A DNA stretch of 40,000 bases, taken from contig NZ_CP127166.1 of assembly GCF_030264275.1 (NCBI RefSeq), positions 1 through 40,000 on the forward strand. The letters are read 5' to 3'. Each line of letters begins with the position of its first letter. Within the stretch, counting starts at the first letter, position 1. This DNA comes from Marivivens sp. LCG002. Its GTDB lineage: Bacteria; Pseudomonadota; Alphaproteobacteria; Rhodobacterales; Rhodobacteraceae. Below the pieces are notes generated by a model, which saw nothing but the letters and a program-made list of their open reading frames with translations, was not told where the DNA came from and searched no databases. Positions 7,685 through 28,087 of the stretch are shown here, in pieces. The position numbers and the translations under genes are program-made.

Positions 7685-9499
7685 GTGTTCCCCTTGCACT
7701 CGGGCTCCCCATCCGCAAGATCAGCGGAACAGCCCGAGAAAGCGAAACCCGAAGTGCCAAGCCGATCCACAGTTCTCCAACGACTGGCCCTCCCCGAAGC
7801 GGGCATCCTCGACCAAGAACCCTTGTTCTGGAAGCGGACCCACGGCATTCGGCGGGACGGCGACGTGCTCCACTTTGCGGCGGGGTCCGATCTCGACCTC
7901 GGAGCCTATCTCAACGTCTTTCACCCGACCCAATGGCAAACCCACACGGGCGCGCAGGAATTCACCCTCGATCTGAACGGCCAAGGTCGCTTTATACTCA
8001 GCATCCGTGCGCATGGCCCCAACGCCGCCATTTCGGTTCGGCAAGAGATGGAGGTCACACTTCCCTTCCGCCTGACGCTCCCTGCACCGCAAGAGCCCGA
8101 GCTTTGGTCGCTCGCCCTTCACGCTTTGGAGCGGGGGCAGATCACCGCCTGCGACTGGTCCACCCCCCTTGCGCCCAAGCCGATCAAACTCGCCCTTTGC
8201 ATCACCACCTACCGCCGAGAGGCCGAGGTCGCACGAACGATCGCGCGGCTCCAAGATCTGATCATCAAACACGACCTTTCCGAACAGTTCACCCTCATCG
8301 TGATCGACAATGGACAGTCTCTAACCCTGCCCGAAACGCCCAAAACGACGGTGATCGCCAACCGCAATCTGGGGGGAAGCGGCGGCTTTGCCCGCGGGCT
8401 TCTCCATGCCCGCGACATCGGCGCGAGCCATTGTCTCTTTATGGACGACGACGCCTCTTGCCCGAGCGAAAGCCTCCTTCGGACCTTTGCGCTCCTGTCG
8501 CTTGCGCCCGATACCGCCGTCTGCGGCGCGATGATCGGCGCGGCGCATCCCAATCTCATGTGGGAAAACGGCGCCGTTTTCGAGGGCCGCTGCCGCCCAC
8601 AGTTCTCGGGCACCAACCTCGCCCGCATCGAAGACGTGACGGATATGGAGTTTTCCGCCCTCCGCCCCAAATCGGCGGGACACTATGGCGGCTGGTGGTT
8701 CTTTGCCTTCCCCGCGGGGAAGGTCGAAACGCTTCCCTATCCGTTCTTTGTGCGGGGCGACGACATCTCCTTTTCGCTCGCCAACACCTTTCATCAGATC
8801 ACCCTCGGCGGTGTCGTCTCGATCCAAGAGGATTTCAGCGACAAGGAATCCCCGCTCACCCAATATCTCGACCTGCGCAACCACCTCTCCCAGTATTTGG
8901 TGCACCCCTCGACCTGCCCGTCGCGCCTTGGCGCGGCAGGCTTCGCGCTCCGCTTCATCGGGCGGTCCCTTCTCAGGATGCACTACGAAACCTGCGAGGC
9001 CTTGCTCCTTGCCTGGTCGCATATGATCGAAACCCCCGATCTCTTTGAAACCGACCCCGAGGCCACCCAAGCCCGCGCCGAGGTTGCCGCTCTCTACAAG
9101 ACCGAGCGTTGGTCAGAAGACCGGATGCCCTCCGGTCTTCTCCCGCCCAAGCGCAATCCGCTCTGGAAACAGATCCTCTCACGTCTCACCCTGAACGGCC
9201 ATCTGGTGCCCTTCTGGACAAACATCGCGCCGAAAACCGCCGTCCATCCCAATGTCCGCGCACAGGTTTGGCCCGTCATGATGACTTCAGGCGCGCGCCT
9301 TTATGACCGAAGCGGCACCCGCGCCTATACCGTCACCCATTCCAAGCGTCGCTTTTTCGCGATCTCGCTGCGGGCCTTGGCCCTCGCGCTGCGCTGGACG
9401 CTGGCCTATCCGTCGATCCGTGCAAAACACCGCGCCTCCTATGCCCGCGCAACCCAAGAGCCCTATTGGCGCGGCGAATTTGAAAAACCTTTGAATTAA
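7685..9499 (+). CDS. GlfT2-like galactofuranosyltransferase (GT2)
   Basis: 604 residues with the architecture of mycobacterial GlfT2-type UDP-galactofuranosyltransferases: an N-terminal beta-rich domain (to about residue 160), a GT-A catalytic domain and a helical C-terminus. Motifs seen are LALCITTYRRE, IVIDNG, NLGGSGGFARG, the metal-binding MDDDAS (D254-D256), GGWWFFAFP and FVRGDDISFSLA (D359-D360). It should transfer galactofuranose from UDP-Galf in the cytoplasm; the mutase that makes UDP-Galf is at 15.1 kb. The start is a GTG 19 bases after the RuBisCO-like stop, with a weak ribosome site, so the true start may differ. One copy of the parS-like palindrome is embedded at 8706-8723, coding FPAGK. 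Confidence 0.82.
   Translation: MFPLHSGSPSARSAEQPEKAKPEVPSRSTVLQRLALPEAGILDQEPLFWKRTHGIRRDGDVLHFAAGSDLDLGAYLNVFHPTQWQTHTGAQEFTLDLNGQGRFILSIRAHGPNAAISVRQEMEVTLPFRLTLPAPQEPELWSLALHALERGQITACDWSTPLAPKPIKLALCITTYRREAEVARTIARLQDLIIKHDLSEQFTLIVIDNGQSLTLPETPKTTVIANRNLGGSGGFARGLLHARDIGASHCLFMDDDASCPSESLLRTFALLSLAPDTAVCGAMIGAAHPNLMWENGAVFEGRCRPQFSGTNLARIEDVTDMEFSALRPKSAGHYGGWWFFAFPAGKVETLPYPFFVRGDDISFSLANTFHQITLGGVVSIQEDFSDKESPLTQYLDLRNHLSQYLVHPSTCPSRLGAAGFALRFIGRSLLRMHYETCEALLLAWSHMIETPDLFETDPEATQARAEVAALYKTERWSEDRMPSGLLPPKRNPLWKQILSRLTLNGHLVPFWTNIAPKTAVHPNVRAQVWPVMMTSGARLYDRSGTRAYTVTHSKRRFFAISLRALALALRWTLAYPSIRAKHRASYARATQEPYWRGEFEKPLN
8706..8723. repeat. parS-like palindrome, distant copy (CCTTCCCCGCGGGGAAGG)
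   Basis: A perfect 18-bp palindrome containing the same 16-mer as the six copies at 22.7-25.6 kb. It lies inside the galactofuranosyltransferase gene, about 14 kb from the partition genes. Confidence 0.75.
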
Positions 9500-19364: not shown

Positions 19365-20524
19365 CTCACATGGTCCCGCACCGCCAGAGCGATCAGCGTC
19401 GAAATCAACCAGATCACAAAGGCCCCGCCGAAAATCAAAAGCGAGTTGCGGAGCCGCTCGGGATAAACCGCCTCTTCGGGACGAAACGGCCGCGCAAAAA
19501 TCGCCAGATAGCGTTGCTGGCGATCCGCCTCCATTCGCGCAGCCTCAAGCGAGGTAAGCGCCGAAGCATACCGTTGCTGGGCAAAGGTCTGCTCGATCTG
19601 GAGATCCTCGAACTCGGCCAACATATTCGCGGTTGCCCCACCGCCCCCATCACCGCCGATTGCGGCGCGGCGCTGTGCGATCTGGTCGGCAAGCGCTTCG
19701 ACCTGCCGTTTCAATTGGGTCAGCCGCGGCGCATCGGGCCCGACCGCTTCGGCAAGAACGACGACCTGTGCCTGCAACTCGGCAAGCTGCGCTTCAAGCG
19801 TCGCGATCAACTCGGCGTCAAGCTGCGCGTTGATGACGGGATCAAAAGCCCCCTGCTCCTCTCGAAACCGCCGAAGCGCCATCTGCGCCGCATAAAGCCG
19901 CTCTTCCGCACGCTCGACCTCTCGGGTGGCGAACTGCACCGAGTCGCGGCGTGCCTTTTCGGAAAGCTCGTTCACAAGCTGGGTCGCCGCATCAAGAACC
20001 GCATCGGCGACCACGATCGCCGTGTCGGGATCGAAGGCTTGCACCTCATAACTCACGATCCCGGTCGTGCTGTCGTAACTGGTCTGGATCCGCCGCGACC
20101 AATAATCGACGAATTCTTCCAAAGTGCTGTTTTGGGCCAATCTAGAGACTGGATCGAGCGTCTCGTCCGCGAAATGCTCTCTCAGCGAGAGCATATCATC
20201 CAAAGCCCGAAGAAGATCGGGACTCTCGAGATAGCGGCGGATGATATAGCTGTCCGAGGTGGTCGATCCTGCCGAGGTCATGCCGGTGAAACTGCTGAAG
20301 AGATCGACGCCCGAGGCCGCTTCGACCCCCCGCACCACAAAACTCGCCCCCGCTGCATAGCGGTCCGAGGCGACCTTGCCGTAATACCAGCCGCCAAGAA
20401 CGGTCGGCGCGACGACCATCACCGCGAAACTCGCGGCCAGACGCCATCCACGCCGCTTGGCCCGCACCGCACGCGGCGAGGTCACAAGGCCCGAAGGTCT
20501 CTCTATGGCGTTGTCCTGCTCCAT
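19361..20524 (-). CDS. kpsE: Capsule polysaccharide export inner-membrane protein (KpsE/BexC/CtrB family)
   Basis: 387 residues with the polysaccharide copolymerase-like layout: a transmembrane helix near the N-terminus (LAASFAVMVVAPTVLGGWYY), a large periplasmic part rich in coiled coil (about residues 165-330, ERAEERLYAAQMALRRFREEQ onward) and a second transmembrane helix near the end (LLIFGGAFVIWLISTLIALAV). It bridges the ABC exporter to an outer-membrane polysaccharide channel. I choose ATG 20524 over a TTG at 20545. The outer-membrane partner KpsD and the KpsC/KpsS lipid-linker enzymes are not in the window. The gene begins 40 bases after the replication initiator gene on the same strand. 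Confidence 0.9.
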   Translation of the reverse strand: MEQDNAIERPSGLVTSPRAVRAKRRGWRLAASFAVMVVAPTVLGGWYYGKVASDRYAAGASFVVRGVEAASGVDLFSSFTGMTSAGSTTSDSYIIRRYLESPDLLRALDDMLSLREHFADETLDPVSRLAQNSTLEEFVDYWSRRIQTSYDSTTGIVSYEVQAFDPDTAIVVADAVLDAATQLVNELSEKARRDSVQFATREVERAEERLYAAQMALRRFREEQGAFDPVINAQLDAELIATLEAQLAELQAQVVVLAEAVGPDAPRLTQLKRQVEALADQIAQRRAAIGGDGGGGATANMLAEFEDLQIEQTFAQQRYASALTSLEAARMEADRQQRYLAIFARPFRPEEAVYPERLRNSLLIFGGAFVIWLISTLIALAVRDHVR

Positions 20525-20563
20525 AGGCGGCAGCCTACCTCCCAAGCCCTAAGCAATGGTTGA

Positions 20564-21247
20564 CTAGTGAACGATCCGAAGTGTTCGCACCGTCGGGTCA
20601 AGTCGTCTCATCTCGCGCAACAGCCGATCCCCGAAATGGCTCTCGACATAATTTGCATGGAACCGCGTCGGGGCGGAAATTACAAACCTGTCGTCCTCGC
20701 GCCCGACAGGATCAAGCCGCGAGAGCCACGCCGCAAAACTTGCGGGATCATCGTCGTAAAAGCTCTTGCAAATTCCGGACCAGAGCGAGCCGTCGTCACT
20801 CGGCGCCTGAACACGAGAGGGCGCGAATTTGACGACATTGCTCGGTGTCTCTGCCTCAATCGGGGTTTCGGCACGGGCGACAAAGTCGGGGCCGATGTTT
20901 TCCCAGACGGGCTTGGTATCCCCCATGATCTTTTCGAGACAGAGGCCATGCACCGCAACCCGCCCCCGCGCCGCACCGCGTTTCTCGACAAGCCAGCCGC
21001 TTGCGCGGAACTTGGACATCTCGCGTTTGACCGTTCGCGTGTCACAGGCCCAGAGCTTGGCAATCTCGTTCTGTCCGATGGTAAGCTCGTCCTTTTGCCA
21101 GTTATAGCGCGTGGTGATCAAAGCCATAAGCCGAAGCACTTGACGCTGGACGTGCTTATCCTGAGACAGACCAAAGGCAGCCAATGCAGAGAGTATGTCA
21201 TATTTCTTGACGGACGCTGAACGCCCGACGGGTTTGGCAACCTGCAC
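20564..21247 (-). CDS. Plasmid replication initiator of the DnaA-like type
   Basis: 227 residues. The N-terminal part (about 12-100) has a winged-helix look (HVQRQVLRLMALITTRYNWQKDELTIGQNEIAKLWACDTRTVKREMSKFRASGWL). The C-terminal part (LWSGICKSFYDDDPASFAAWLSRLDPV ... FVISAPTRFHANYVESHFGDRLL) resembles DnaA domain I. This combination is that of the DnaA-like replicases described for Rhodobacterales plasmids, distinct from RepABC, RepA and RepB types. No AAA+ domain is present. The start is GTG 21247 with GAGGAG 8 bases upstream. It is divergent from parA across a region with iteron-like repeats, as expected for an initiator beside its origin. Confidence 0.8.
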   Translation of the reverse strand: MQVAKPVGRSASVKKYDILSALAAFGLSQDKHVQRQVLRLMALITTRYNWQKDELTIGQNEIAKLWACDTRTVKREMSKFRASGWLVEKRGAARGRVAVHGLCLEKIMGDTKPVWENIGPDFVARAETPIEAETPSNVVKFAPSRVQAPSDDGSLWSGICKSFYDDDPASFAAWLSRLDPVGREDDRFVISAPTRFHANYVESHFGDRLLREMRRLDPTVRTLRIVH

Positions 21248-21367
21248 TTTGCTGCTCCTCGTATGGCCCTAGGGCCGCGCCTCTGTTCGGGATCTTGGTC
21301 GTCCCATTTGCCGGATCACAACGTTCTTCCGATCTGTTGGCTTATTTGCGTCCTGACGTTCGATTCT

Positions 21368-21382
21368 GTCAAGCGCTTTGAC
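21368..21382. promoter_or_regulatory. Inverted repeat GTCAA-GCGCT-TTGAC
   Basis: Perfect 5-bp arms, 120 bases upstream of the initiator start. It could be an operator controlling initiator expression. No direct evidence beyond symmetry and place. Confidence 0.35.
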
Positions 21383-21446
21383 TCCGCCGAGAGGTCGAGG
21401 CCCGTCCCCAATACCAAAATCTGAATGGATTTTCAGGTTAAATAGG

Positions 21447-21531
21447 TAATAGGGGACATTCAGGCTGTCACCCTAAATGAAACTTTTGTCACCCCAATAG
21501 CAGTGGTCTGCCCCAAGGTGTCCCCCTAAAT
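21447..21531. repeat. Iteron-like repeats, consensus TGTC(A/C)CCCTAAAT
   Basis: Three direct copies are seen at 21466-21478 (TGTCACCCTAAAT), 21487-21499 (TGTCACCCCAATA) and 21519-21531 (TGTCCCCCTAAAT). A fourth lies inverted at 21447-21458 (TGTCCCCTATTA on the minus strand). The cluster is between the initiator and parA, the usual place for initiator-binding iterons. Confidence 0.6.
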
Positions 21532-21618
21532 CTGGCACGTTCATCGGGGCCTGCCCCCGCCCACAAACGCCCCTCCGCCGAATCGCTTCCGGCCTTATTT
21601 TCATGGCCCGCCAACGGA

Positions 21619-21665
21619 TTTGCACTTTTTGCGTTTTCACTAAACTTCACTTTTGCATTTTTGGC
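21619..21665 (+). repeat. Pair of 14-base direct repeats in the parA leader
   Basis: TTTGCACTTTTTGC (21619-21632) and TTTGCATTTTTGGC (21652-21665) match at 12 of 14 positions and are 33 bases apart. They lie 60-106 bases before parA and could be operator sites for ParA autoregulation or part of an AT-rich unwinding region. Confidence 0.4.
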
Positions 21666-21724
21666 AAATTCAGCGTATTTCCGATCTAGAAGAATATTTA
21701 CGTCCAATAAGAAAGACAGCAGGC

Positions 21725-23032
21725 ATGTTTACCCACGAGGATTTGGCAAACCTTCAGGCGCAGTCGCTCAAGATGCAGACCTGGATCCGCCGTCAGACGT
21801 TCAGCCCCCAGATGGAAAAGACGCTCCGTCGCTTCTCGAGCTGGGAAGTCTCCGAGCTTATCTTCAAGATCAACCAGTCCACCTTCCGCGGCCGTCTTGC
21901 CGCCGAACCCGATCTTCCGGGGGGCGAGGTTGAAGAGGATGGCCGCCAGCGCTGGTTCAGCCTTGAAGAGATCAACGAGCTGCGCCGCAAGATGAAGATC
22001 AACCGCAAGTCCCTTATGCCCGAGCGGCCTCAGGGCAAGCGCGCCTTCCGCGTGGCCATCGCCAACTTCAAGGGCGGCGCGGGCAAGTCCACCGTTGCGC
22101 TTCACCTTGCCCATGCCGCCGCGCTTGATGGCTACCGCGTTCTTGTCGTCGACTTTGACCCTCAAGCAACCCTGTCCCACTCCATGGGACTTAATGACGT
22201 GGCCGAAGATCACACCGTTTGGGGCATCATGGCCCGCGATCTCATCCGCGAGACCGACCGTATGAACGCCGCTGTTCAGGGCGCCGAGTCGGGCACCGCC
22301 CTGCCCCAGCGCCGCATTCCCGCGTCGATCCGCGATCTTGGCCTTGGCGATCTTCGGGTGGCTGACTTCATCAAGCCGACCGCTTGGCCGACCATCGACA
22401 TCATCCCGTCTTGCGCCAACGCCGCCTTCGTGGAATTCGCTTCGGCCCAGTATCGGCACCTCAATCCCGAATGGACCTTCTTCGGGGCGGTATCCCGCTA
22501 TCTCGATGCGATCCCGAGCGACGCCTATGACCTCATCATGTTCGATTGCCCGCCCGCGATCGGCTATCAGTCGATGAACGCGGTCTTCGCCGCCGACATG
22601 CTCTATATCCCCTCTGGTCCCGGCTATTGGGAATACGACTCCACCACATCCTTTATCGGTCAGCTTGCCGAAGCGCTCGGTGATCTTGCGCACAGCTATC
22701 CCCAAACCTTCCCCGCGGGGAAGATCAAGCTGCCCAAGGTCTTTCAGGACGTGCGCTTCCTCATGACCCGTTACGAGCCCGGAAACGAGCTGCACCGTGC
22801 GATGTTCGAAGCATTTAGAAAGGTTTTTGGTGATCATGTAGCAGAGCACCCGATCGAAATGACCCGCGCGGTCGAACAGTCGGGCCGCTTCCTAAGCTCG
22901 GTCTACGAGATCGACTATCGGGACATGACCCGCGAAACGTGGCGCCGCGCACGGGCCACCTTTGATCGGGCCTACGAGGAATTCAAAGGGTCCGTGCTCA
23001 CCGCATGGAAGAACTTGGAGGATGAGGAATGA
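21725..23032 (+). CDS. parA: ParA-family partition ATPase
   Basis: 435 residues. An N-terminal extension (about 1-115) with a likely DNA-binding helix-turn-helix-like part precedes the Walker-type ATPase. The deviant Walker A is FKGGAGKST, followed by VLVVDFDPQATLS (Walker A'/switch) and MFDCPPAIGYQSMNAV (Walker B). Such type Ia ParA proteins both segregate plasmid DNA with ParB and repress their own promoter. The start at 21725 begins a plausible N-terminus (MFTHEDLANLQAQ); a longer frame from 21653 runs into the promoter repeats. It overlaps parB by 4 bases (ATGA). A parS-like palindrome is embedded at 22708, coding TFPAGKI. Confidence 0.9.
   Translation: MFTHEDLANLQAQSLKMQTWIRRQTFSPQMEKTLRRFSSWEVSELIFKINQSTFRGRLAAEPDLPGGEVEEDGRQRWFSLEEINELRRKMKINRKSLMPERPQGKRAFRVAIANFKGGAGKSTVALHLAHAAALDGYRVLVVDFDPQATLSHSMGLNDVAEDHTVWGIMARDLIRETDRMNAAVQGAESGTALPQRRIPASIRDLGLGDLRVADFIKPTAWPTIDIIPSCANAAFVEFASAQYRHLNPEWTFFGAVSRYLDAIPSDAYDLIMFDCPPAIGYQSMNAVFAADMLYIPSGPGYWEYDSTTSFIGQLAEALGDLAHSYPQTFPAGKIKLPKVFQDVRFLMTRYEPGNELHRAMFEAFRKVFGDHVAEHPIEMTRAVEQSGRFLSSVYEIDYRDMTRETWRRARATFDRAYEEFKGSVLTAWKNLEDEE
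22708..22723. repeat. parS-like palindrome copy 1 (CTTCCCCGCGGGGAAG)
   Basis: Perfect 16-bp palindrome inside parA, read as TTC-CCC-GCG-GGG-AAG (Phe-Pro-Ala-Gly-Lys). Confidence 0.8.
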
Positions 23033-24144
23033 GCAAGAAACGTCGCGTCTTCGACATCGACCTCCCCGAGGATGATTTTGCCGAAACCTTCCCCGCGGGG
23101 AAGATCGACGCCCCGAACGAAGAGGGCAAGCGTCGCGGTCCCATGGCCACCGCGATCAGCGAAACCGCAGGGAGCCTGCGCGAGCGTCAGGAAATCGAGG
23201 CGACAATCCGCGCCGAGAACGACGCCCTCGCCCATGAACATGTGCGGCTGAAAAAACTCGGGCTGATCGTCGATATGATCCCGCTCGACAAGATCGATAC
23301 GCACAAGCTTGTGCGCGACCGTCGCAAGGGGCCCGACTTTGAAATCATCGAGCTTAAATCCTCGATCAAGGACATCGGCCTTTCGAACCCGATCCGCGTC
23401 GAACCGCGCGCCGATGGCCGCTTCGAGCTGATCCAGGGCTATCGCCGTTTGACCGCCTTCAAAGAGCTTTTGGAGGAAACGGGCGACGAAGAGAAATTCG
23501 GCTCTATTCCAGCCGGAATCATTGCACAGGGCGAAAGCGTTGAGACTCTATATAGGAAGATGGTGGACGAGAACCTTGTCCGCAAGGACATCTCCTTTGC
23601 CGAGATGGCAAAGCTTGCTGTCGACTATGCAAAAGACCCTACTACCGCTGAAACAGACCCTGATAAGGCGGTCGCCGCGCTCTTCTCTTCTGCTGGGTAT
23701 CAGAAGCGGACCTATATCCGTGGGTTCATTCCGCTGGTCGAGGCGCTCGACGGGATTTTGAAGTTCCCGCAAGAGATCCCGCGCCGTCTCGGGCTTGCCC
23801 TCTCCAAGCGCTTGACCGAGGTCGAAGGGCTCCGCACCGCGATACGCAACGATCTTGAAGGCTGGGAAAATTACTCGGTCCGTGACGAGCTTGAAGTACT
23901 GCGCAAATACGCCGAAGAGGAAGAGGATGACTTTGGCCTTCCCGTCGCGAAAAAGGCCGACAAAGTCCCGAGCGCTGCGCCGACCAAGGCCAAGACCACA
24001 TTTCAGATCGAGCGCCCGCACGGGGTTGCGAAATGCACCGCCGGAAACGGGCGGCTTGAGATCCGTCTTGGACGCGACTTTTCAACCATCGATCGGCGCA
24101 AGCTTGAAGAGGCTGTGCGCACGCTTTTGAACCAGATCGAATAG
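23029..24144 (+). CDS. parB: ParB-family centromere-binding protein
   Basis: 371 residues. The ParB/sulfiredoxin-like N-terminal domain is visible as IPLDKIDTHKLVRDRR, LKSSIKDIGLSNPIRVEP and FELIQGYRRLTAFKEL. A helix-turn-helix region follows (ISFAEMAKLAVDYAKD onward). The C-terminus after about residue 290 is a linker and a putative dimerisation part. It should bind the palindromic parS-like sites that surround and interrupt these genes and load the ParA system. It is translationally coupled to parA. A copy of the palindrome lies near its own 5' end (23088) and encodes the same TFPAGKI peptide as in parA. Confidence 0.92.
   Translation: MSKKRRVFDIDLPEDDFAETFPAGKIDAPNEEGKRRGPMATAISETAGSLRERQEIEATIRAENDALAHEHVRLKKLGLIVDMIPLDKIDTHKLVRDRRKGPDFEIIELKSSIKDIGLSNPIRVEPRADGRFELIQGYRRLTAFKELLEETGDEEKFGSIPAGIIAQGESVETLYRKMVDENLVRKDISFAEMAKLAVDYAKDPTTAETDPDKAVAALFSSAGYQKRTYIRGFIPLVEALDGILKFPQEIPRRLGLALSKRLTEVEGLRTAIRNDLEGWENYSVRDELEVLRKYAEEEEDDFGLPVAKKADKVPSAAPTKAKTTFQIERPHGVAKCTAGNGRLEIRLGRDFSTIDRRKLEEAVRTLLNQIE
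23088..23103. repeat. parS-like palindrome copy 2
   Basis: Exact 16-mer CTTCCCCGCGGGGAAG inside parB, same reading frame as in parA. Confidence 0.8.
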
Positions 24145-24169
24145 CGCTCTGCGCTTTGGTTTCGAGAGA

Positions 24170-24192
24170 GGCGGCCCTTGGGTCGCCTTTTT
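24170..24192 (+). terminator. Rho-independent terminator after parB
   Basis: The stem GGCGGCCC / GGGTCGCC (one G-T pair) with a tiny loop is followed directly by TTTTTC. It begins 26 bases after the parB stop and should end the parAB transcript. Confidence 0.75.
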
Positions 24193-24202
24193 CATTTAAA
24201 AC

Positions 24203-24218
24203 CTTCCCCGCGGGGAAG
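24203..24218. repeat. parS-like palindrome copy 3 (intergenic)
   Basis: Exact 16-mer in the gap between parB and the DUF1612-type gene, just after the parB terminator. Confidence 0.85.
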
Positions 24219-24244
24219 ATTCCACCCTCCCACCCTTTGTCCGA

Positions 24245-24278
24245 GTTATGTGCAAAATCATTGTATTTTGCGCATAAC
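24245..24278. promoter_or_regulatory. 34-bp inverted repeat overlapping the promoter of the DUF1612-type gene
   Basis: Arms GTTATGTGCAAAAT and ATTTTGCGCATAAC pair at 13 of 14 positions around a 6-base centre (CATTGT). A promoter candidate TTGTAT-16-TGATAC overlaps it, and the gene starts 22 bases after it. This is a typical layout for a repressor operator, probably for the downstream DNA-binding protein itself. Confidence 0.6.
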
Positions 24279-24299
24279 AAATGTGATACCTTTGGGGCT

Positions 24300-25304
24300 A
24301 TGAAATTTTTGGACAGCCCCTCAGACACTCCCGAAGACGAGGAAGAGGACCTTTGGTTCCTCCCCGCGCCTCTTGAGGATGCTGCGCCGACCGACCTCCC
24401 TGCCCCGCTTGCGCCATTGCCGGTCAAGGGCTGGTCGGTGGACTGGGCGCGGGCCGAGGCGGGATTGGGTCGTCCCTTGGCCGAGGCGTGGGCAGCGCTC
24501 GCGCGGCTTGATGAAAAGGTTGCGGCGACCAAGGGGGCTTCTCAATGGATCGCCCTTGGCGAGGCCTCGGCGCTAAGCTGGTATGACGGGCGGCGCATCG
24601 CGCCCGAGCGGCTTGCGCTCTATGCCGAACTGCGGGTCTCGACCGCCGAGGATGACGCCCGCGACCTCGCACTGGCAGATTGGGCGCGGCGGCGTCTGGT
24701 GGGGTCTGTGTCGCCCGAGGACATCGAGGCCTTTTTCGGGTTCGAGGACCAAAACCTTCCCCGCGGGGAAGATGGGCTCGCGTGGGTCGGCTCGATCAGG
24801 AGCGGGCAATTGCACCCGCTGACCGCCGCCGCGATGGCCTTTCACGACTGGAAAAGGATCGGGCTGTCGGGTCCTGAAAGCGTGCTTGAGGCGGCGACTT
24901 TGGCGATGCGAGTGGCGGCAACGGGGCTTCGCGCCCTGCCCTTTGCGCCGATGGCCTCGGTCGGGATGCGCGCGATCAGGTCAAGCGGACCAGTCGAGGA
25001 GCGGCTTCTTCCGTGGCTCGAGGCGATCCGTAACGGTGCGCAAGAGGCATACCTTACCCTCGATCGGCTTGAGGATTGGGGCAGTCGGGCGCGAGCTGCC
25101 ATCGCGCCGATGTCGGGGCGCACGCCCGAGCGGCTTGTCTCTGTCCTCGTTGAGGTGCCCTTCCTCTCGGCTGAAATGGCCGAAGTGCGGACAGGTGCCA
25201 GTCGGGCAGCAGTGCAGCGCAACCTTGACCGTCTCGCCGCGCTCGGGTTGGTCAAAGAGGTGACGGGCCAGCGGCGCTATCGCTACTGGACCGCAGCGAT
25301 CTAG
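24300..25304 (+). CDS. DUF1612 / helix-turn-helix protein of the RHE_PE00001 type
   Basis: 334 residues. After an acidic N-terminus (about 1-25), the body (WARAEAGLGRPLAEAWAALARLDEKVA ... SALSWYDGRRIAPERLALYAEL) matches the DUF1612-like family often found on alphaproteobacterial plasmids. The C-terminus has a winged-helix segment (FLSAEMAEVRTGASRAAVQRNLDRLAALGLVKEVTGQRRYRYW). A role as plasmid-borne transcription regulator is likely; the target is unknown, but a 34-bp inverted repeat over its own promoter suggests autoregulation. One parS-like palindrome is embedded in it, in a different reading frame from those in parA and parB. It overlaps the convergent HMA gene by 4 bases. Confidence 0.72.
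   Translation: MKFLDSPSDTPEDEEEDLWFLPAPLEDAAPTDLPAPLAPLPVKGWSVDWARAEAGLGRPLAEAWAALARLDEKVAATKGASQWIALGEASALSWYDGRRIAPERLALYAELRVSTAEDDARDLALADWARRRLVGSVSPEDIEAFFGFEDQNLPRGEDGLAWVGSIRSGQLHPLTAAAMAFHDWKRIGLSGPESVLEAATLAMRVAATGLRALPFAPMASVGMRAIRSSGPVEERLLPWLEAIRNGAQEAYLTLDRLEDWGSRARAAIAPMSGRTPERLVSVLVEVPFLSAEMAEVRTGASRAAVQRNLDRLAALGLVKEVTGQRRYRYWTAAI
24756..24771. repeat. parS-like palindrome copy 4
   Basis: Exact 16-mer inside the DUF1612-type gene, read in a shifted frame as Leu-Pro-Arg-Gly-Glu (CTT-CCC-CGC-GGG-GAA). Confidence 0.8.
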
Positions 25305-25498
25305 ATCTCTGCCGCAGGATAGCCCGCCGCGTCAAGCGCGGAAAGGATCGCGGATTTGGATGCGGTGCTGTCGATCTCGACCTCGCGGGTCTCCATATCG
25401 AAGTCCAGCTCTGCGTCGTCATCCAGAGCGGTGACGGCTTTTTCAACGCTGGCTTTGCAGTGGCCGCAGGTCATGTTGGCAATGTGGAATCGGGTCAT
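25301..25498 (-). CDS. CopZ-like heavy-metal-associated (HMA) copper chaperone
   Basis: 65-residue single HMA domain with the metal-binding motif MTCGHCKASV near the N-terminus. Such proteins bind Cu(I) in the cytoplasm and hand it to CopA, which is encoded divergently 180 bases away. AAGGAG lies 7 bases before the ATG. No CueR-type palindrome faces this gene, so whether it is copper-induced is unclear. The His after Gly in GHC is common in bacterial chaperones, whereas the CopA domains have CASC. Confidence 0.85.
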   Translation of the reverse strand: MTRFHIANMTCGHCKASVEKAVTALDDDAELDFDMETREVEIDSTASKSAILSALDAAGYPAAEI

Positions 25499-25527
25499 GG
25501 TGGTCTCCTTGGTCCGAGCAGGATGAA

Positions 25528-25547
25528 ACCTTCCCCGCGGGGAAGGT
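25528..25547. repeat. parS-like palindrome copy 5, extended to 20 bp
   Basis: ACCTTCCCCGCGGGGAAGGT is a perfect 20-bp palindrome with the common 16-mer at its centre (25530-25545). It is intergenic, in the HMA/copA divergent region. Confidence 0.85.
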
Positions 25548-25573
25548 CAAGCGGGCATCGCGCCACGGCGAAT

Positions 25574-25589
25574 CTTCCCCGCGGGGAAG
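25574..25589. repeat. parS-like palindrome copy 6
   Basis: Exact 16-mer, intergenic, 44 bases after copy 5 and 33 bases before the CueR-type promoter. Confidence 0.85.
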
Positions 25590-25622
25590 GTTTCGGTTCA
25601 CGGGAAATCGGAAACGGAACCC

Positions 25623-25653
25623 TTGACCTTCCAGTTACTGGAAGGCTTAGGTG
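25623..25653 (+). promoter_or_regulatory. CueR-type promoter/operator of copA
   Basis: The -35 element TTGACC and a -10 near TAGGTG are separated by 19 bases, the long spacing typical of MerR-family promoters. The spacer holds the perfect palindrome CCTTCCAG-TTA-CTGGAAGG (25627-25645), which matches the known CueR operator pattern. The copA start is about 30 bases downstream. Confidence 0.88.
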
Positions 25654-25681
25654 GGGGTGAAAGCGATGGAAAGGGGTTACC

Positions 25682-28087
25682 ATGACCAAGCAGATCAAAC
25701 TTTCGGTGCAGGGAATGACCTGTGCCTCTTGCGTCGGACGGGTCGACAAGGCGCTTGCCGCAATCGACGGAGCGGAAGGGGTCGCAGTCAATCTTGCCAC
25801 CGAAACGGCGAGCCTTCGGGTCCCCGAAGAGGTTAGTGCCTCGGAGGTCGCGGCGGTGCTTGATGCGGCGGGGTATCCCGCGCGGACGGTTTCGGTGGTG
25901 CTCTCGGTCGAGGGGATGTCCTGCGCCTCTTGCGTCGGGCGGGTGGACAAGGCTCTTGAAGCGGTCGAGGGCGTGACCGCGGCTTCGGTGAACCTTGCTG
26001 CTGAAACCGCCTCTGTCACCTATCTCGAAGGGGCGGTGACGGTCGAGGCGTTGCGCGCAGCAACAGCGGCTGTCGGCTATCCCGCGAAGGTCGTCGATGC
26101 AGGGACGAGCGCTGAGGATACGGGCGCACGCAAAGAGGCAGAGGCGGGTCTACTCAGGCGCAATCTGATCATTGCGCTGGTTCTTGTGCTTCCTGTTTTC
26201 CTCCTTGAAATGGGGGGGCATGTGTTTTCCGATATTCACCACCTGATCGATATCGTAATCGGAACGCAGTTGTCTTGGGAGTTCCAATTCTGGATGACGA
26301 CCCTTGCTCTTGTTTGGCCGGGGCGTCAGTTTTACCTCAAGGGGTTTCCTGCTTTGTTGCGCGGCGCACCCGATATGAACAGCCTTGTCGCGGTGGGGAC
26401 CACGGCCGCCTATGGCTATTCGGTGGTGGCTACCTTTGCGCCGCAGGTGCTCCCCGAGGAGGCGAGGGCGGTGTATTTCGAGGCGGCGGGCGTCATTGTG
26501 GTTCTGATCCTTCTCGGGCGGATGATGGAGGCACGGGCCAAAGGGCGGACCGGCGCCGCCATTCGCAAGCTTATCGGGCTTCGTCCGAAAACAGCGCGAT
26601 TGAGCCGTGATGGTGTCGAAATTGAAGTCGCGCTCGAGGACATCGGGGTCGGTGATCTTGTCGTCGTGCGCCCCGGTGAGCGGATCGCCGTCGATGGCGA
26701 GGTGGTTTCGGGCGAGAGCTATGTCGACGAGAGCATGATTACGGGCGAGCCTGTGCCCGTGTCCAAGAGCGCAGGCGCTCATGTGGTGGGCGGCACGGTG
26801 AATGGTGACGGGCTTTTGACGTTCCGTGCGGTGAATGTCGGGGCGGATACGGTGCTCTCGCAGATCATCCGCATGGTCGAGGAGGCGCAGGGTGCCAAGC
26901 TTCCGATTCAGGCGTTGGTGGACCGTGTGACGCTTTGGTTTGTGCCTGCGGTCATGGGGCTTGCCGTGCTTACCGTTCTCGGCTGGTTGGTGGTGGACGG
27001 GTCGTTGACCCATGCGCTTGTTGCGGGGGTTTCGGTGCTTATCGTGGCTTGTCCTTGTGCGATGGGCCTTGCGACGCCAACATCGATCATGGTCGGGACG
27101 GGCAGGGCGGCCGAGCTTGGGGTCCTTTTCCGCAAGGGGGACGCACTTCAGTCTCTAACAAGGCTCAAAACAGTTGGTTTCGACAAAACAGGCACGCTCA
27201 CCGAGGGGCATCCGAAGCTCACCGATTTCGAGGTGAAAGAGGGCCTTGATCGTGCGGCGGTGCTTGCCGTCGTCGCGGCGGTGGAGTGGGGGTCGGATCA
27301 TCCGATCTCGCGCGCGATTGTGGCCGCGCATGAGGGCGCAGTTCCCGAGGTCGAGAAGTTCAAATCGCTGGCGGGCTATGGGCTCGAGGCGATGGTCGAG
27401 GGGCAGCAGGTCTATGTCGGAGCGGATCGTTTGATGGTGAAGAAAGGGATCGCGCTCGGTCCCTTCGAGGCGCGGGGGCGGGAGCTTGCGCGATTGGGGC
27501 GCACTCCGCTCTATGCCGCAATTGACGGAGAGGTGGTTGCTGTGGTCGCGGTGGCGGACCCCGTGAAGCCTGAGGCCGAGGCAACGATCAAGTCTCTACA
27601 CAAGCAGGGGATCGAAGTTGCGATGATCACCGGCGACAATCAATCGACGGCGCGGGCGATTGCGCGGCAGCTCGGGATCGATCACGTGGTGGGCGAGGTG
27701 CTTCCCAAGGGGAAGGTCAAAGCGATCGAAAAGCTTCAGGGGCCTGTGGCCTTTGTCGGGGACGGGATCAATGACGCGCCCGCGCTGGCCACTGCGGATG
27801 TGGGGATTGCGGTCGGGAGCGGCACCGATGTGGCGATGGAAAGCGCGGATGTTGTCCTGATGAGCGGGGACACGCAGGGTGTTGTGACGGCGCTCCATCT
27901 GTCGCGGGTGGTGATGCGGAACATCAAGCAGAACCTTGTGTGGGCGTTCGGCTATAACGTGCTTCTGATCCCCGTGGCGGCGAGCGGGATGCTGTCGCCC
28001 ATGTTGGCGGCGGGTGCGATGGCGCTTTCGAGTGTGTTCGTGCTCTCCAATGCGCTGCGACTTCGGTTTGTTCAGGCCCCAAAATAG
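25682..28087 (+). CDS. copA: Cu(+)-exporting P1B-type ATPase
   Basis: 801 residues. Two N-terminal HMA domains carry MTCASC (C14, C17) and MSCASC (C81, C84). The transmembrane CPC motif is at 457-459 ([12 protein letters not shown]), the phosphorylation site DKTGTLT has D501, and the hinge motif [11 protein letters not shown] is at 693-703. The SEHPL-equivalent is [11 protein letters not shown] plus the late NxxL/MSxxxxS-type helices place it in the Cu(I) P1B-1 class, which pumps copper out of the cytoplasm. The upstream promoter has a textbook CueR operator and the cueR gene follows 80 bases downstream, so the unit is a self-contained copper-tolerance module. Confidence 0.95.

Follow-up and report, generated by a model that had tools for sequence, protein, structure and literature searches.

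The 40,000-nucleotide stretch analyzed here (positions 1 to 40,000 of contig NZ_CP127166.1 of Marivivens sp. LCG002, hereafter the window) carries six exact copies of the 16-bp palindrome CTTCCCCGCGGGGAAG within 2.9 kb around a parAB gene pair. Our analysis indicates, with a probability of about 0.93, that these palindromes serve a DnaA-like replicon as parS sites, as part of a partition system of the type I ParABS kind. The initial annotation had read them as probable ParB-binding sites, and this reading was supported by the conserved slots of the sites among relatives, their concerted change, a ParA peptide that follows the DNA, and the way in which they covary with ParB's recognition helix.

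All six copies were located exactly where the initial annotation had placed them, three within genes (22708, 23088, and 24756) and three in intergenic DNA (24203, 25530, and 25574), again as it had described. They are listed below together with a further copy; no strand is assigned to any of them.

22708..22723, no strand: candidate parS site 1, exact 16-mer in parA, read TFPAGK; relatives keep the slot and its peptide varies
23088..23103, no strand: candidate parS site 2, exact 16-mer in the 5' part of parB, read TFPAGK
24203..24218, no strand: candidate parS site 3, intergenic, directly after parB; relatives show a site at about +1100 from the parB start
24756..24771, no strand: candidate parS site 4, in the DUF1612/RHE_PE00001-like gene, in another frame, NLPRGED
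25530..25545, no strand: candidate parS site 5, intergenic
25574..25589, no strand: candidate parS site 6, intergenic, 44 bp from site 5, flanks reversed
8707..8722, no strand: seventh exact copy, in a glycosyltransferase-2-like open reading frame (ORF), read FPAGKV, without the AAAC flank; role uncertain

The reading frames also proved to be those claimed, namely QTFPAGKIK in parA, ETFPAGKID in parB, and QNLPRGED in the DUF1612-like ORF, and the copy at 24203 lies between the parB stop codon and the ATG at 24301, falling within an ORF only if an upstream TTG is taken as the start. The copy at 8707, which had not been noted before, brings the total in the window to seven. No copy with one to three mismatches occurs across the 40-kb window, and dinucleotide shuffles of the window yielded on average 0.73 matches at up to three mismatches (maximum 4, n = 100) against the seven exact copies observed. 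Among the perfect palindromes of at least 12 bp listed for the window, no second repeating one was present. The genome consists of two contigs, C1 (2,934,017 bases) and C2 (227,229 bases), the window being the first 40 kb of C2. Exact CTTCCCCGCGGGGAAG occurs nine times genome-wide, seven times on C2 and twice on C1, with six of the nine inside the 2.9 kb, and the centre-free core TTCCCCNNGGGGAA occurs 13 times, eight on C2 and five on C1. An AAAC flank on one side is common to the six array copies (reversed at 25574) and is present neither at the 8707 copy nor at the two copies on C1.

The array lies in and around parAB; the genes of the region are the following.

20564..21247, minus strand: DnaA-like replicase (DnaA_N, 5.5e-8), divergent from parA
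21653..23032, plus strand: parA (AAA_31, 1.2e-26; NCBIfam partition_RepA, 1.2e-61, yet below its cut-off)
23029..24144, plus strand: parB (ParB_N, 4.1e-5, just under the Pfam cut-off; the fold matches Noc and Caulobacter ParB)
24301..25304, plus strand: DUF1612/RHE_PE00001-like gene, host of site 4 (weak matches only, below cut-offs)

These genes display the features of a type I ParABS system, i.e., a ParA with a deviant Walker A motif, a ParB with a ParB domain and a helix-turn-helix, and sites that change alongside ParB; for the latter protein, an N-terminal ParB domain, a helix-turn-helix, and a C-terminal domain were sought and judged to be present. The DnaA_N replicase adjoins parAB, as in a DnaA-like plasmid, and a matching gene layout was found in plasmids typed as DnaA-like-I and -II in PMC9025767. 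The Walker A motif of ParA, KGGAGKST at residues 140-147, is invariant in the 21 ParAs aligned, and the true start of parA is probably the ATG at 21725, where the alignment of most relatives begins. The structure model of ParA was discarded as too poor (mean predicted local distance difference test score, pLDDT, 52.7). That of ParB had a mean pLDDT of 80.5 and placed the helix-turn-helix at helices 211-218 and 224-240; residues 15-33, partly encoded by site 2, had pLDDT values below 50 and were predicted to be disordered. The top PDB matches of this model were Noc, the RK2 repressor complex, and Caulobacter ParB, with a probability of 1.00 each. Residues Q136, G137, R139, and R140 are invariant in the 40 ParBs aligned, and the G-x-R-R among them may correspond to the motif of that form in the cytidine triphosphate (CTP) pocket of CTP-dependent ParB clamps.

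ParB homologues were found in 82 of the 295 genomes of the family (the window's own included), and 80 stretches were taken from the 88 places; these, the window, and a second set of 80 loci from a genome scan gave, after removal of four duplicate loci, a training set of 157 unique ParB loci. The palindrome search was blind to sequence: whatever 16-bp palindrome recurred near parB was accepted, its centre being left free, and one was detected in 141 of the 157 loci as compared with 3 of 157 after dinucleotide shuffling. The half-sites were TTCCCC (105 loci), GTCCCC (24), TTACCC (14), TAACCC (8), and TTATCC (3), with none in three loci, and the two central bases were variable (GC, AC, AT, TC, GT, and others). 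The comparison with relatives that the initial annotation had suggested revealed palindromes recurring in and around parAB in conserved slots, near -1400, -1110, -320, +55, and +1100 relative to the parB start. A single half-site was used by 140 of the 145 loci having at least two sites, and in 120 of 122 loci the parA slot belonged to the same class as the remaining sites, both exceptions mixing TTATCC and TTACCC. Three TTCCCC sites and one TAACCC site lie near parB in plasmids that PMC9025767 assigns to DnaA-like-I and -II. The CTT-type palindrome CTTCCCCNNGGGGAAG was found in none of 20 related genomes outside this class, at least three of which carry ParBs of other classes, and CTTCCCCGCGGGGAAG had zero copies in six genomes of the same genus. 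At one locus (L097), palindromes with the GTCCCC half-site follow parB in steps of 54-56 bp (1262 to 1537 from the parB start), a spacing of about five helical turns. On D. shibae pDSHI02 (L346), the DnaA-like module looks broken: its DnaA-like gene measures 285 bp and parA lacks its 5' part; parB and its site are intact, and a second rep-par module adjoins.

The claim that the DNA and not the peptide is conserved, which had been based on the shifted frame in the DUF1612-like gene, was correct in that argument and was much strengthened by the parA slot, where the peptide tracks the palindrome class. Among relatives, the codons of this slot read FPAGK, FPTGK, VPAGT, LPTGK, LPMGK, or LSADK, and within the nearer ParB group almost every locus has a palindrome, or something close to one, at this place (L054, L061, L075, L076, L103, and L125 are among the exceptions); it was not found in the distant loci L109-L118. 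The fixed position together with a peptide that varies with the palindrome implies that the DNA is under selection. The exact palindrome codons were used in 80 of 94 FP[AT]GK slots, against 2.15 expected from the genes' own codon usage, and the Gly codon of the slot was GGG in 98% of the 103 TTCCCC-class loci, where the median fourfold column matched the window's codon in 55%. Chance or codon bias as the source of the repeats was excluded by the shuffles and by these codon statistics. That the repeats reflect conservation of an FPAGK peptide or a GC-rich bias in codon use might be suggested by the TFPAGK read at two copies and the FPAGKV read at the 8707 copy and at one C1 copy; as a full account this is refuted, since the DUF1612-like gene uses another frame, three copies are intergenic, the slot peptide varies with class, and the codon choice is far from usage. 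The parA slot thereby offers a clean natural example of a coding sequence doubling as a DNA site.

The palindrome class was further found to follow a single residue of ParB, residue 224, which is the first position of the predicted recognition helix. In the training set, Tyr224 accompanied CT as the outer two bases in 109 of 109 loci, Pro or Ala accompanied TT in 9 of 9, and Lys accompanied GT in 11 of 11, and Arg was found with G as the second base in 24 of 25. This rule, which for Arg224 covers the second base only, was fixed in writing before 100 further loci were taken, mostly below 60% identity plus 10 above; these were drawn from the same family via the same query as the training loci. 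A repeated palindrome could be located without using the residue in 86 of them, which were scored, the other 14 being left unscored for want of one. The rule was right in 85 of the 86 (Tyr 28/28, Lys 21/21, Pro 4/4, Ala 2/2, and Arg 30/31). It held for all 77 loci whose ParB stays below 90% identity to every training ParB, and for all 62 that stay below 80%; the sole miss, L284, shares 94% identity with L122, the exception in the training set. Both sets combined, 225 of 227 loci obey the rule, the training part being in-sample.

Among 69 representatives below 65% identity, residue 224 ranked top of the ParB columns for the outer bases, with an excess of 1.60 bits (next column, 0.86). When 173 ParBs were placed on a tree from which the helix region had been left out, the outer bases changed 8 times and residue 224 changed 9 times (joint, 10), and there were one to three independent pairs on supported branches and two to five over all branches, none contrary; because of shared ancestry, these pairs are too few for formal significance. 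Part of the training comparisons involved relabelling by hand: six loci were pooled as TTAYCC, L105 was called GTCCCC, L050, L061, and L064 were left unlabelled, and L076, L106, L107, and L108 were omitted from the T/G test. Rows were thinned at 90% (144/157) or 85% identity (173/227), and those below 250 amino acids were dropped. The position of residue 224 in the modelled helix and its likeness to residue 173 of ParB/Noc suggest that it may contact the outer bases directly. For the neighboring residue 225, 85 of 85 called new cases agreed with base 3 and one was uncalled. It was not accepted as a proven reader of this base: the training loci L051, L054, L063, and L160 have Ser with C3, independent changes are few, and column 168 outranks it for base 3.

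That the palindromes bind the DnaA-like replicase or a plasmid repressor, serving replication or operon control rather than as a centromere, might be suspected from the several sites in or beside the rep-par module and from the DnaA-like protein encoded next to it. This seems very improbable, as the sites track the recognition helix of ParB (the protein on which the covariation was run), none lies between the replicase and parA in the window, and they extend 1.4 kb past parB; such binding may exist as an additional role. That the palindromes are transcription terminators or dispersed palindromic repeats might be suspected from the off-replicon copies in the D. shibae genome (G035) and in G488, which are flanked by A-rich sequence on the left and T-rich sequence on the right; two of the places examined are between convergent genes with Pfam support on either side (LuxR-type regulator/tgt and CNNM/HerA), others probably being so placed. 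For the array of the window, such an origin is less probable still: three of its six copies are genic, in two frames, the copies in the window are followed by at most three T, the class shifts with ParB, and the slots are fixed.

Several observations weigh against the parS assignment. The initial annotation had held that scattering of the 16-mer over all replicons would speak against a centromere; the whole-genome count sided mostly with the assignment, in that seven of nine copies are on the replicon C2, and against it in that two exact copies sit on the large contig C1. Some relatives hold many class-matched copies off the replicon. The ParB_N match of 4.1e-5 falls below the curated cut-off, and the whole-model template modelling (TM) scores of the ParB fold matches are low (0.19-0.36 for the top 11). 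A repeated perfect palindrome was lacking in 16 of the 157 training loci and in 14 of the 100 new loci, and L122 and its sister L284 violate the Arg rule. What computation shows is that the sites exist, are conserved and change in concert, and that the rule for residue 224 holds; the binding of ParB to the sites is a prediction.

The two exact copies on C1 are at 2431347 (L001) and 2761175 (L002). One is in the gap between genes read by eye as rplY and pth, and the other is within a membrane-protein-like ORF, translated as FPAGKV. In two pairs of genomes from the same genus, the 200 bp before pth held no palindrome; two others could not be located. Elsewhere, palindromes of the resident ParB's class were found off the replicon on G035:C1, G488:C2/C4/C8/C14 (L329-L339), G412:C1, and G500:C1, and class-matched whole-genome counts were also taken in G477, G541, and G551; the off-replicon copies range from 6 to probably tens. 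The D. shibae genome has six CTT-type copies on its largest contig, five with a GC centre, and G488 has nine off the parB contig, including three pairs 52-53 bp apart; AAAC..GTTT-like flanks occur at the off-replicon copies in both. The TGT-type palindrome TGTCCCCNNGGGGACA occurs 28 times in one Leisingera-like genome, with 15 copies on C1, and 26 times in another, with 12 on C1; a Tateyamaria-like genus has three genomes with counts of 97, 69, and 23. Because the related Tateyamaria plasmid NZ_CP019315 has 10, all inside 4.7 kb, most of the 97 are probably off the replicon. Three CTT-class hosts held no TGTCCCCNNGGGGACA, and a CTT-like site with both outer bases changed was absent from 23 genomes. 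Among viral contigs, no relative of ParB was found; in L348-L354, the CTT 16-mer is in four stretches and the TGT 16-mer in three.

These off-replicon copies imply that ParB need not be the sole reader of the palindrome. It is conceivable, and rather unlikely, that in some hosts the plasmid ParB also acts on the chromosome in a Noc-like or terminator-linked second role. It is favored by the zero counts of CTT sites in the 20 related genomes, of TGT sites in the three CTT-class hosts, and of the doubly changed CTT-like site in 23 genomes, and by the partial synteny of off-replicon sites between the two Leisingera-like genomes; against it, several copies are placed like bidirectional terminators between convergent genes, most hosts with listed positions have at most one copy off the parB contig, and the Leisingera and Tateyamaria counts cover the TGT class only. 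Should ParB bind the class-matched copies on the chromosome, plasmid partition would be linked to the host chromosome in a rarely considered way.

The suggestion that the exact 16-mer might define a compatibility group of its own was not borne out. The half-site CTTCCCC is present in 102 of the 227 loci with a repeated palindrome, and the palindrome is therefore not private to the window's plasmid. CTTCCCCGCGGGGAAG as a private group marker was likewise rejected, as palindrome classes vary within the nearer ParB group. A ParB of at least 44% identity is held by 77 of the 295 genomes, and none holds two, whatever the palindrome class, against 8.5 expected by naive chance, an expectation that carries no ancestry correction. 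Six genomes pair such a ParB with a second one at 34-41% identity, i.e., nearer and distant types together, and among the genomes of the new loci, G457 lists two ParBs, one with two stops. It is doubtful that palindrome class alone determines compatibility.

Sites 5 and 6 lie in a gap (region 25300-25700) from which two frames diverge, a small one on the minus strand that is copper-chaperone-like and a gene at 25682 that is copper-ATPase-like, and an inverted repeat near 25627, ACCTTCCAGTTACTGGAAGG, looks by eye like a CueR operator. A promoter and terminator scan of 20500-25800 gave no excess over shuffled sequence.

On the parS reading, a ParB dimer would read the half-sites CTTCCCC...GGGGAAG via its helix-turn-helix, with the central two bases counting little. 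Once loaded at several of the sites across 2.9 kb, ParB would form a partition complex, and ParA would move this complex such that each daughter cell receives the low-copy replicon. CTP-dependent loading and sliding, the movement by ParA, and any autoregulation via the in-operon sites are steps that we only infer. What began as a hunch about a repeat has become a centromere with good support, in a class of low-copy plasmids and chromids that is widespread. The residue-224 rule would allow a centromere to be predicted from the protein alone, and points to a few residue swaps that could show how plasmids switch partition specificity.

Petersen et al. 2011 (Mol Biol Evol 28:1229) reportedly proposed the palindromes of Rhodobacterales DnaA-like plasmids as centromere anchors and are said to have described a DnaA-like replicase adjoining parAB; the residue rule is not known to appear there. 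The present system would share with these plasmids the DnaA-like replicase beside parAB and the conserved palindromes. No open-access report was found for CTTCCCCGCGGGGAAG or for CCCCGCGGGG with ParB, a looser search gave only unrelated titles, and none was found by title for the residue-224 rule, in searches covering little of the subscription literature. The parS sites of Rhodobacterales repABC plasmids are near-perfect 14-bp palindromes near the par genes, in several copies and some in ORFs, and a different compatibility group is marked by a single reciprocal change of base (PMC5613091, PMC9040568), and compatibility-marking palindromes are established in RepABC plasmids (PMC5613091, PMC9040568, PMC3910702). 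In contrast to those plasmids, the replicase and arrangement here are different, and sites lie inside both par genes, towards the 3' end of parA and the 5' end of parB. In the chromosomal ParB-parS and Noc-NBS (Noc-binding site) pairs, which also use 16-bp palindromes, PMC7383237 pairs the outermost of the variable bases with R/Q173, a residue close to where the segment that reads the DNA begins; here, four outer-base states pair with one residue across plasmids. The centromere thus appears to be of a type already known from plasmids, to which the present analysis would add a testable rule of specificity.

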